A DNA stretch of 64,000 nucleotides from Planktomarina sp. (GTDB taxonomy: Bacteria; Pseudomonadota; Alphaproteobacteria; Rhodobacterales; Rhodobacteraceae). Of this stretch, positions 8,469-47,398 are shown piece by piece. The notes under the pieces were generated by a model, which was not told the origin of the DNA, made no database searches, and saw only the letters and a list, made by a program, of their open reading frames with translations. The stretch covers positions 138,189 through 202,188 of the forward strand of contig JAHDBC010000001.1 in assembly GCA_020630595.1 (NCBI GenBank), given 5' to 3'. The first letter of the stretch is position 1, and each line of letters opens with the position of its first letter. Made by a program: the position numbers and the translations under genes.

Positions 8469-9815
8469 TTAACCCTCCAAAGCCCGCCGCAGCATAATGA
8501 TATCGTCGGAAATCTGGCTGTCTTGGTTCTGCAGCTCTTCGATCCGTTTCACACCGTGCATGACTGTCGTGTGATCGCGCCCACCAAACCGGCGTCCAAT
8601 TTCAGGAAGGGACCGGGTGGTCAGCTGTTTGCACAGATACATCGCAATCTGCCGGGGCCGCGCAAAGGTACGAACCCGTTTCGGGCCCAGCATATCTGAC
8701 AAACGAATGTTGTAGTGGTCGCTGACTTTGCGCTGAATGTCTTCGACCGTGATCTTGCGGTCGCTGGCGCGCAACACATCCGACAAACAGTCCTGTGTCA
8801 GTTCAATCGTAATGGCCCGCCCAACCAAAGATCCAAAGGCGAACAGCCGGGTCAACGCGCCCTCCAGAACGCGCACGTTGCTGGAAATACGGTGAGCCAG
8901 GAATTCGACCACTTCGGGTCCAATATCGATGCCGGGATACGCTGACCGGTACATATCGATCTTGGCCTGCAAAATCCCAAGCCGCAGTTCGTATGTCGTG
9001 GGGTGCAGATCCACAACCAGACCGCACTGCAGACGGCTGGCGATGCGATCTTCCAGATCCTTGATTTCAGACGGTGCGCGATCTGCGGAAATGATGATCT
9101 GCTTGTTCTGATCCACAAGCGCATTGAACGTGTGAAAAAATTCTTCCTGCGTGCTGTCCTTGCCGGCGATGAATTGAACATCATCCACCATCAACACATC
9201 AACCGACCGAAACAGTTCCTTGAAATCCATCATTTTGCGTTCGCGCAAAGATTGTACAAAGCGGTACATGAACTGTTCCGCAGACAAATACATGACATTC
9301 AGTTTGGGCTGATTGCGCTGCAATTCCCACGCAATTGCGTGCATCAAGTGCGTTTTGCCCAAACCGACACCGCCGTACAAAAACAGCGGGTTAAAGGTCA
9401 CAGGCCCGCCTTCGGCAACGCGTTTGGCGGCGGCATAGGCCAATTCGTTTGGCTTTCCGACGATGAAGTTTTCGAAGGTGAACCGATCATCCAGTTTGGC
9501 ACCGGTCAATTCCTGTGGCCGTTCAGGGCTGGCCACACTTTCGAATGTTGAACGGTTCAGGTTTTGTGGAACCTGTGCGGGAACAGAAAACAGAACACGG
9601 CTGACTTGCAGCCCGGCATTCCGCAATTGATACAAAATATAATCTTCGAAATGTTGCTGAACGTAATTCCCGAAAAAGCTGGTGGGCACTTCGAATACGG
9701 CTGTTTCGCCATCTTCGCCCTTGTAGGTCAGCGGTTCGATCCAAGAGGTATGATTGTTCTGCCCGATCGAATTTTTGAGTTTATCTGACGCAACCTGCCA
9801 AGCGCTAAAGCCCAT
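8469..9815 (-). CDS. dnaA: Chromosomal replication initiator DnaA
   Basis: AAA+ protein that binds DnaA boxes and melts oriC. N-terminal domain I has FSAWQVASDKLKNSIGQN and SWIEPL; Walker A is GGVGLGKTHLMHA; Walker B lies in DVLMVDDVQF; the C-terminal DNA-binding signature is GGRDHTTVMHGVKRIEEL. The ATG at 9815 gives 448 aa; the track start three codons upstream is a TTG and less likely. It is the first gene of dnaA-dnaN-recF and is preceded by a 420-bp non-coding region. The likely oriC is not here but about 37 kb away at 47.0-47.4 kb. Confidence 0.97.
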   Translation of the reverse strand: MGFSAWQVASDKLKNSIGQNNHTSWIEPLTYKGEDGETAVFEVPTSFFGNYVQQHFEDYILYQLRNAGLQVSRVLFSVPAQVPQNLNRSTFESVASPERPQELTGAKLDDRFTFENFIVGKPNELAYAAAKRVAEGGPVTFNPLFLYGGVGLGKTHLMHAIAWELQRNQPKLNVMYLSAEQFMYRFVQSLRERKMMDFKELFRSVDVLMVDDVQFIAGKDSTQEEFFHTFNALVDQNKQIIISADRAPSEIKDLEDRIASRLQCGLVVDLHPTTYELRLGILQAKIDMYRSAYPGIDIGPEVVEFLAHRISSNVRVLEGALTRLFAFGSLVGRAITIELTQDCLSDVLRASDRKITVEDIQRKVSDHYNIRLSDMLGPKRVRTFARPRQIAMYLCKQLTTRSLPEIGRRFGGRDHTTVMHGVKRIEELQNQDSQISDDIIMLRRALEG

Positions 9816-9904
9816 ATTCTTCAAAGTCCATTTTCTGAACGTGCAAACACACGCAATACTTTACCGCCACCGATTCGTCCCAAACCGGTATTGGTTCCCA
9901 CAAC

Positions 9905-45047: not shown

Positions 45048-45633
45048 GGGCGGTCCTTTCTTTGATATCTGTCAGGATACGGATCACCGCAGCCTTCGCT
45101 GCGTCAATCGTGTCTGTCGGGATGACGTAATCCGATCTAGCACATTTTTCGTCTATCGGCATTTGCTTTGACAGGATCATCGCGAAATGCGCGGCGGTCA
45201 TCCCATCACGCGCCAACACCCGCGTGCGTTGGGTGTCGCGATCAACATAGACACAGGCGACTGCGTCAAATTCATCTTGCGCACCTGTTTCGAACAAAAG
45301 CGGGATATCGCACACGGCGATGTCCGCCTGTGTCGTTTCCAGAAAATCCGCCCGGTCTTGTTGCACAAGTGGATGCACGACGGATTCAATTTGGGGCAGC
45401 GCGGCGGGATCATCGGCGATCCAGGATCGAAGCACAGACCGATCAACCATTCCGTCCACGATGGCAGAGGGGCAAAGGGCTGAAATCAAGGGCACCGCCG
45501 CGCCGTCGGGGCCATAAAGCCGATGAACGGCCGCATCCGCGTCCCAAATTGCGCACCCATGGTCAGCAAAGATTTTGGCTGTGGTCGATTTGCCCATGCC
45601 AATTGAACCTGTCAGCCCCAATCGAAACGTCAT
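45040..45633 (-). CDS. coaE: Dephospho-CoA kinase
   Basis: Last step of coenzyme A synthesis: phosphorylates the 3'-OH of dephospho-CoA. P-loop LTGSIGMGKSTTAKIFADHG; further CoaE marks are VWDADAAVHRLYGPDG-type sequence (here IWDADAAVHRLYG) and DIPLLFETGAQDEFDAV. 197 aa. It overlaps the maf-aroE gene by 4 nt and dnaQ by 8 nt, giving one tightly coupled operon. Confidence 0.96.
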   Translation of the reverse strand: MTFRLGLTGSIGMGKSTTAKIFADHGCAIWDADAAVHRLYGPDGAAVPLISALCPSAIVDGMVDRSVLRSWIADDPAALPQIESVVHPLVQQDRADFLETTQADIAVCDIPLLFETGAQDEFDAVACVYVDRDTQRTRVLARDGMTAAHFAMILSKQMPIDEKCARSDYVIPTDTIDAAKAAVIRILTDIKERTARA

Positions 45634-47036
45634 GCAAGCACCGCATCGCGCAAGGCGTGGTCGACCGTTGGTCTGGTTCCAAACCAGCCTTCGAAACCGG
45701 GAACAGCCTGATGCAGCAACATGCCCAACCCATCAATGGTCGCGCATCCCATGTGCCGCGCCCCCAACAACAGATTTGTTTCCAATGGTTTGTAGACGAT
45801 GTCTGTCACAATCGTGGTGTCGCGCAGTCCAGACAGATCAAATTCCAGCGACGGTTGACCGTCCATGCCAAGCGACGTGGTATTGACCAAAAAATCAATC
45901 TGGGTGTTGCGTGACGAACGCGCGTCCCACGGCAACACATGAACACGTTCCCCAAATTCCTGGGCCAGGGTTTCCGCCTTGGCACTTGTTCGGTTCGACA
46001 GGAAGACGCGCGCGGCACCATCTTCCAAAAGGGCAAAGATGATGGCCCGTGCCGCGCCCCCCGCGCCCAGAACCAAACATGTTTGCCCATCCGCCGACCA
46101 ATCCGCCCGATGGGCACGGATGTTTTCCATGAAACCAAACGCATCGGTATTGTCGGCAACGATGCCATCGGGGCGAAAGAACAGCGTATTCGATGCGCCG
46201 ATTGCCCTGGCCGCCGCTGATTGTTCTTTGGAACAGGCAAGGGCGGCTTCTTTGTGCGGAATGGTGACGTTGCAACCTGCAAACCCCGCGGCGCGCAAGA
46301 TGCGTATGGTGCGTTCAAATTGGTCCTTTGGCACGTGAACCGGAACATACATTCCTTGCAATCCATGTTGCCACAACCACGTTCCATGCAGGATTGGGGA
46401 TTTGGATTGTTTGATCGGGCAACCCAAAACCCCCGCCAGAACCGGGCGCTTGGCTGTTCCCGCAGCGCCATGCGCGCGAAGAATGTTGATCAAAGGCGTG
46501 ATCGAAAGCCCCAGAACATCAAACCAATCGCCCTTGATATCATCAAACAGATGCGGCGTCGTTTCAGCGTGGTAGCCGCCAGCGGAATGTTGAATATCAT
46601 CCCAGTGGGTTTCGATGTGATCATCAATTTCAGCGGCAGACAGAACCCGCATCGTCAGATCCACACGACCGATATGCCGCCAGATCGGTTCACCGTCTTT
46701 GTACAGAACTTGCGCCGTTAACAGTTTGTGGGGGCGTCCATTCATATGCCGCATCAAATCGCGCAGATCGCCGGGGGATGTTGGCTTTCCGAATATCGTC
46801 CCTTCGAACACAAGAACCTGATCACACCCCAAAACAAGACCGCCCTGTTTTGATGAAACCTTGCGGGCCTTGTATTCTGCCAAGGCATCAACCACATCAC
46901 GGGGGGATGCCCCATCGGCCAAAAGTGATGCCTTTAGGCTGTCTTCATCCACCCGCGCGGCCATTGCATCGAACGGCACGCCAGCCGCCCGCAGAATGGC
47001 CATCCTGCTTTCTGATTGAGACGCAAGGCATAACAT
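45630..47036 (-). CDS. Maf nucleotide pyrophosphatase fused to shikimate dehydrogenase
   Basis: A single 468-aa frame with two enzymes. Residues ~1-190 are a Maf-family nucleoside triphosphate pyrophosphatase (YceF-like: LCLASQSESRMAILRAAGVPF, LGCDQVLVFEGTIFGKP, HSAGGYHAE). Residues ~200-468 are AroE, which reduces 3-dehydroshikimate with NADPH: VLGCPIKQSKSP, NVTIPHKEAA with the catalytic Lys, NTDAFGF with the Asp, and the dinucleotide motif LGAGGAARAI. The join is LRAHGAAGTAKRPVLAGVLG with no stop and no ATG/GTG near the AroE domain start. These are usually separate adjacent genes. Promoter must lie within or beside oriC. Confidence 0.92.
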   Translation of the reverse strand: MLCLASQSESRMAILRAAGVPFDAMAARVDEDSLKASLLADGASPRDVVDALAEYKARKVSSKQGGLVLGCDQVLVFEGTIFGKPTSPGDLRDLMRHMNGRPHKLLTAQVLYKDGEPIWRHIGRVDLTMRVLSAAEIDDHIETHWDDIQHSAGGYHAETTPHLFDDIKGDWFDVLGLSITPLINILRAHGAAGTAKRPVLAGVLGCPIKQSKSPILHGTWLWQHGLQGMYVPVHVPKDQFERTIRILRAAGFAGCNVTIPHKEAALACSKEQSAAARAIGASNTLFFRPDGIVADNTDAFGFMENIRAHRADWSADGQTCLVLGAGGAARAIIFALLEDGAARVFLSNRTSAKAETLAQEFGERVHVLPWDARSSRNTQIDFLVNTTSLGMDGQPSLEFDLSGLRDTTIVTDIVYKPLETNLLLGARHMGCATIDGLGMLLHQAVPGFEGWFGTRPTVDHALRDAVLA

Positions 47037-47052
47037 TGTGGATAACCCTTCG

Positions 47053-47080
47053 AAGTTATTCGGACATCACCGCGATCCAT
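47053..47080 (+). repeat. oriC direct repeat, copy 1
   Basis: AAGTTATTCGG-A-CATCACCGCGATCCAT. It shares AAGTTATTCGG, CATCAC and GATCCAT in the same order with copy 2 at 47172-47199, 119 bp away. Not a DnaA box by consensus; may bind DnaA weakly or another origin factor. Confidence 0.6.
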
Positions 47081-47171
47081 CCCATATGATTCACAAGGAT
47101 ACAGCCAAAGGTGCAAGTCTTTTCATTCGATGCACGTTTTCCAATGGGATCATCCCACTATGGAAAAGAAC

Positions 47172-47199
47172 AAGTTATTCGGCATCACGATTGATCCAT
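47172..47199 (+). repeat. oriC direct repeat, copy 2
   Basis: AAGTTATTCGG-CATCACGATTGATCCAT, matching copy 1 with a one-base indel. Its end, TTGATCCATG (47191-47200), recurs inverted as CATGGATCAA at 47318-47327, right before the last DnaA box. Confidence 0.6.
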
Positions 47200-47398
47200 G
47201 ATCGATCATTCAGAACATTATCCACAGGAACATAAAAACCAGCATTCTGATTTCATTGTATTTTTCGCGAAATAGTACAGCGTGGCTTGCCATTATCCAC
47301 CCGTGCAAAAACCTGTGCATGGATCAATAATCCACAGAAATTGACGCCCCTAAATCAATCAACTTCCTTCTTTTAATATTCTATTTATATATGCATGC

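Follow-up and report, generated by a model that had tools for sequence, protein, structure and literature searches.

The intergenic region between maf(-aroE) and hemJ spans positions 47037–47398 of the window (the whole 64 kb stretch of DNA that was analysed), with a length of 362 bp and a GC content of 40%. The maf-aroE ORF reads leftwards and its start codon ends at 47036; a hemJ/CopD-like ORF reads rightwards from 47399 and is followed downstream by rho, mnmE, mnmG, rsmG and parA (parAB). The ORFs flanking the region read as maf-aroE, coaE, dnaQ, hemJ and rho, with no Rep gene nearby; these gene names are our reading of the translations and not database annotations. We compared 104 maf–hemJ regions, comprising the window, 16 regions from the same genus and 87 from other Rhodobacteraceae (species may overlap between the two collections). 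The maf–hemJ synteny extends across these 104 loci, with a spacing of ∼400 bp in almost all of them. Directly beside the intergenic region (45630–47036, reverse strand), a single uninterrupted ORF of 468 aa encodes both Maf and AroE (shikimate dehydrogenase). This fusion is a clean genus marker: all 17 readable origins of the genus, the window's among them, have it, whereas 86 other loci all lack it.

The region is very probably the chromosomal oriC, a prediction that is based on its position between maf and hemJ, its canonical DnaA boxes, the nearby parS and the GC-skew minimum of a same-genus genome, and that bears out the assignment made in an initial annotation of this DNA. An oriC beside maf is reported to be conserved in Rhodobacteraceae (PMC4793288), and an intergenic maf–hemJ position upstream of rho-mnmE-mnmG-rsmG-parAB is that of a maf-adjacent oriC. 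The region contains two exact DnaA boxes (0.02 expected) and three with one mismatch (0.46 expected), which is far above chance. A pair of parS sites (TGTTTCACGTGAAACA) is located 3–5 kb past the origin, on the same side, both in the window (50515 and 52390) and in G019, a complete genome of the same genus. The skew was read in G019, the window's own assembly consisting of 63 contigs. Over the 248 kb read, the cumulative GC skew of G019 has its minimum at 3,220,183, about 1–1.3 kb from the start of hemJ (3,221,445), and the sampled skew switches sign near maf–hemJ. The dnaA locus (8469–9824 in the window) was considered as an alternative origin and rejected, as the G019 minimum is located at maf–hemJ and not at dnaA, which lies 68 kb from the skew minimum and hemJ in that genome. 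With the maf-adjacent origins of Rhodobacteraceae predicted in DoriC or by Ori-Finder, the region shares its place beside maf and near parAB/parS, DnaA boxes, a local GC minimum and a GC-skew minimum. It differs in being shorter than most relatives (362 versus ∼400 bp) and in its spacer sequence and a 44-bp repeat, both of which are particular to the window genome; the fusion of maf to aroE sets it apart from other Rhodobacteraceae origins but not from the rest of the genus. The features of the region are summarized in Table 1.

Table 1. Sequence features of the maf–hemJ intergenic region, in window coordinates.
Feature	Position	Strand	Remarks
DnaA box TTATCCACA, maf-proximal	47037–47045	-	Exact consensus
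Direct repeat copy 1, AAGTTATTCGGACATCAC...GATCCAT...TGATTCACAA	47053–47096	+	Gapped self-alignment
DnaA-like box TGATTCACA, one mismatch	47087–47095	+	Within repeat copy 1; overlaps the only GANTC of the region
Degenerate DnaA box TTTTCCATA, two mismatches	47159–47167	-	Position of the family reverse-strand box TGTGGATAA
Direct repeat copy 2, AAGTTATTCGGCATCAC...GATCCAT...TCATTCAGAA	47172–47215	+	Gapped self-alignment
Inverted pair arm 1, ATTGATCCATG	47190–47200	+	Inside repeat copy 2
12-bp palindrome ATGATCGATCAT	47198–47209	.	Chance level
DnaA box TTATCCACA	47218–47226	+	Exact consensus
Weak IHF-like site CAGCATTCTGATT, two mismatches to YAANNNNTTGATW	47240–47252	+	Column occupied in 51/104 origins
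DnaA box TTATCCACC, one mismatch	47293–47301	+	Spacing −34/−35 in four anchored genus members
Inverted pair arm 2, CATGGATCAAT	47318–47328	-	Exact 11-bp match to arm 1
DnaA box TAATCCACA	47328–47336	+	Among the most conserved boxes; adjoins the unwinding region
Presumed unwinding element	47337–47398	+	Spacer GAAATTGACGCCC, CTA (47350–47352), AT-rich tract to hemJ

The family alignment has fixed points in a reverse-strand DnaA box near maf and in forward-strand boxes in the middle of the origin, at 47293 and at 47328. Most members of the genus have reverse-strand boxes at a distance from the hemJ-side box similar to that of the window box at 47037. The exact box at 47218 is located at −110 from the hemJ-side box, and two genus members have forward-strand boxes at −107 and −117; the sequence TTATCCACC of the box at 47293 is identical in the genus member L083. 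A box with at most one mismatch starts at the 47328 column in 49 of the 104 origins. The hemJ-side family block consists of TAATCCACA (often with a direct second box), a short GC-containing spacer, CTAC, ATC repeats and a T-rich stretch, and the segment CCCTACA..ATCATCATC..TTT is conserved there. A tandem second box after TAATCCACA (window 47337–47345) occurs in 38 of the 104 origins; the window no longer has it, and in the genus sequences displayed it seems to have decayed. The family also has a back-to-back box pair, TTATCCAC(c)TGTGGATAA, at the position of window 47147–47168, which is decayed to ATCATCCCACTATGGAAAAG in the window. Additionally, the genus-conserved sequence ACTGTGGGGGTAAT (L083–L100), located near window 47085 in the interval from maf to the middle boxes, is absent from the window.

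An IHF-like sequence (YAANNNNTTGATW) occupies one fixed column (alignment column 388) in 51 of the 104 Rhodobacteraceae origins; in a control with 40 permuted patterns, the highest column count is 14 or fewer for 39 of the patterns and 52 for the remaining one, which makes the control good but not perfect. The exact IHF consensus is absent from the window region. The version found in the genus (TAAGTTTCTGTTT) is close to TAACGCTCTGTT, the IHF site of the Caulobacter Cori (PMC4285127). The Caulobacter crescentus Cori has in common with these origins its DnaA boxes (in some relatives also of the T-to-G type) and a mid-origin IHF-like site in the family. In contrast, the CtrA sites of Cori are without counterpart in the window (no TTAAN7TTAA) and show no excess in the family (four in the 104 origins versus three in shuffled sequences), and the hemE/COG1806 flanks of Cori are unlike those of the window (PMC1914354). 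The presumed unwinding element shares with the basal unwinding system a conserved DnaA box, a GC-containing spacer, CTA and an AT-rich tract on the hemJ side. The strict DnaA-trio pattern (PMC8287927), with a DnaA box, a spacer of at most 16 bp and at least three NAN trios, is matched in 49 of the 104 origins but not in the window. Owing to this and to the two mismatches in the IHF-like site, the origin of the window species, as judged from its sequence, is diverged in several places at once. An altered DnaA box specificity was also considered and is not expected, since the HTH of DnaA domain IV (GGRDHTTV) is of the genus type, with no genome-particular change at the signature; the E. coli row of this comparison served as a reference frame only.

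The initial annotation had reported three kinds of repeat in this region and had stated that none is a consensus DnaA box. The latter is correct, and all three repeats are present, with some adjustment of their extent. The direct repeat (AAGTTATTCGG at 47053 and 47172) is longer than the 28 bp originally given: its two copies measure 44 bp each, lie 119 bp apart and have diverged, aligning with two one-base gaps. The inverted pair (TTGATCCATG and CATGGATCAA, at 47191 and 47318) is exact over 11 bp rather than ten, and the palindrome ATGATCGATCAT at 47198 was found as described. To assess chance levels, the 362-bp region was shuffled with its dinucleotide composition preserved. Neither the inverted repeat of 11 bp (P = 0.158) nor the palindrome of 12 bp (P = 0.133) stands out from such shuffles; for the direct repeat, P is 0.035 for the exact 11-bp match and 0.003 over 6000 shuffles (0.001 over 1000) for the gapped alignment. 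Only the direct repeat exceeds chance, and modestly so given the choice among feature types. Of the 104 related origins, 18 score P ≤ 0.05 when tested for self-similarity in this way, and the window ranks third by z-score; self-similarity is rather common in maf–hemJ regions, partly from repeated DnaA boxes.

The repeats had been regarded as sites specific to this origin family, which the comparison with the 16 same-genus and 87 other Rhodobacteraceae regions refutes: in the alignment of related origins, the check that the annotation itself had named, the blocks are missing. Neither AAGTTATTCGG, ATTGATCCATG nor ATGATCGATCAT occurs in the 103 other origins, where even the nearest matches do not surpass those in shuffled sequence. 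The fixed columns of the family are the DnaA boxes, the IHF-like site and the hemJ-side block, and the repeats are not among them. Nucleotide searches returned no orthologous match to the origin in 20 same-genus and 397 family genomes and none to its upstream half in 396 other family genomes; the best non-self match (in G163) is 25 bp long and lies in unrelated genes. The nearest relatives compared share ∼70% HemJ identity, so that a feature limited to the species and unsampled sisters would escape these comparisons, and the loss of a true site by turnover is indistinguishable from its absence because the upstream halves diverge fast and same-genus members hardly align.

The suggestion that the blocks are regulator-type or iteron-type sites fared no better. 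Genome-wide searches show no regulon, with nothing beyond chance or coding occurrences: ATGATCGATCAT is found once more in the genome, inside a long open frame, the six further copies of ATTGATCCATG are all in ORFs of at least 137 codons and AAGTTATTCGG-type sites (17-mers like the direct repeat) occur elsewhere in the genome at control frequency. Plasmid iteron origins also have direct repeats in the origin, in the form of several near-identical copies bound by Rep; the window differs in having only two diverged copies, which at 119 bp apart make no iteron array, no Rep gene nearby and DnaA boxes. A search of IMG/VR viral contigs for a 29-bp block of the region gave no match. An RNA element was rejected for want of an Rfam match, as was a promoter or terminator, for which there is no excess.

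We consider it probable that the region is an ordinary Rhodobacteraceae oriC in which the direct repeat is a lineage-specific, diverged partial duplication and the inverted pair and the palindrome are words that arose by chance. DnaA would bind the boxes at 47037, 47218, 47293 and 47328, IHF-type bending would probably take place near 47240 and the AT-rich end adjoining hemJ (47353–47398) would melt. The repeats would then occupy the fast-changing spacer between DnaA boxes. A 44-bp segment may have been partially duplicated (or copied by gene conversion) and has presumably diverged since, without a sequence-specific role, and the inverted pair and the palindrome would reflect the chance matching of short words that contain GATC and overlap the direct repeat. 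Since no related origin has the repeats, the most likely reading is that they were left behind by a local duplication and do not form a new control system, and duplication is likewise the most likely origin of the 44-bp repeat, as inferred from one genome. Against this reading, the repeat runs through the matching DnaA-like words TGATTCACA and TCATTCAGA, as a functional module would too.

The main rival explanation, which we regard as unlikely, is that the blocks are low-affinity DnaA sites. The degenerate boxes TTATTCGG and TGATCCATG would then help DnaA to oligomerize from the strong boxes. The 44-bp repeat would serve as a DnaA-assembly module. This rival is consistent with the layout of the repeat copies, in which a reverse-strand box (47037) precedes copy 1, a degenerate box (47159) precedes copy 2 and the ends contain DnaA-like words, and with the position of TGATCCATG at 47192, which starts at a column with a box in 15 of the 104 origins. 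TGATCCATG is also close to the Caulobacter G-box TGATCCACA; low-affinity sites and G-boxes are known in other origins (PMC4285127). However, two-mismatch DnaA sites in the region are at the shuffle level (5 versus 4.4, P = 0.45), and arm 2 of the inverted pair (47318) is four bases out of register with the family box TGTGCATGG at 47314. Furthermore, CACA is a highly constrained part of the DnaA box and the blocks lack it. A placement of both TTGATCCATG arms on family DnaA boxes was rejected, as the position counts support 47192 only and the other arm is offset by four bases.

Pure chance, by which all three features would simply be the top-ranking words among the many that a sequence of 362 bp and 40% GC can offer, is very unlikely as a full account. 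The P values for the inverted pair (0.16), the palindrome (0.13) and the exact direct repeat (0.035) agree with it, as do the choice among many feature types from which the annotation was made and the P ≤ 0.05 reached by 18 of 104 origins, but the gapped 44-bp alignment (P = 0.003) argues against it. It is highly improbable that the blocks are sites of a lineage-specific origin regulator (a repressor or timing factor) like CtrA in Caulobacter: the direct repeat is above chance and the use of CtrA in origins is itself lineage-specific (PMC4468827), but the genome has no second cluster of such sites and the region has no CtrA or exact IHF consensus. We give equally little credence to the 44-bp copies being a recently evolved regulatory module that DnaA binds with low affinity in a new arrangement, or that another factor binds, and that replaces decayed family boxes such as the pair at 47147–47168; were such a module functional, it would illustrate how fast origin control can be rewired.

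With the repeats read as remnants of a duplication, the comparison points to the DnaA boxes, the hemJ-side unwinding block and the mid-origin IHF-like site as the selected parts of the origin, the rest of which would turn over freely. Repeats found in a single origin should be compared with those of relatives before being named regulatory. The region contains six GATC sites, which is not a notable enrichment. GANTC (CcrM) sites number 91 in the 104 maf–hemJ regions, about half of the shuffled level (170), and the window as a whole is poor in GANTC, with 76 sites in 64 kb.
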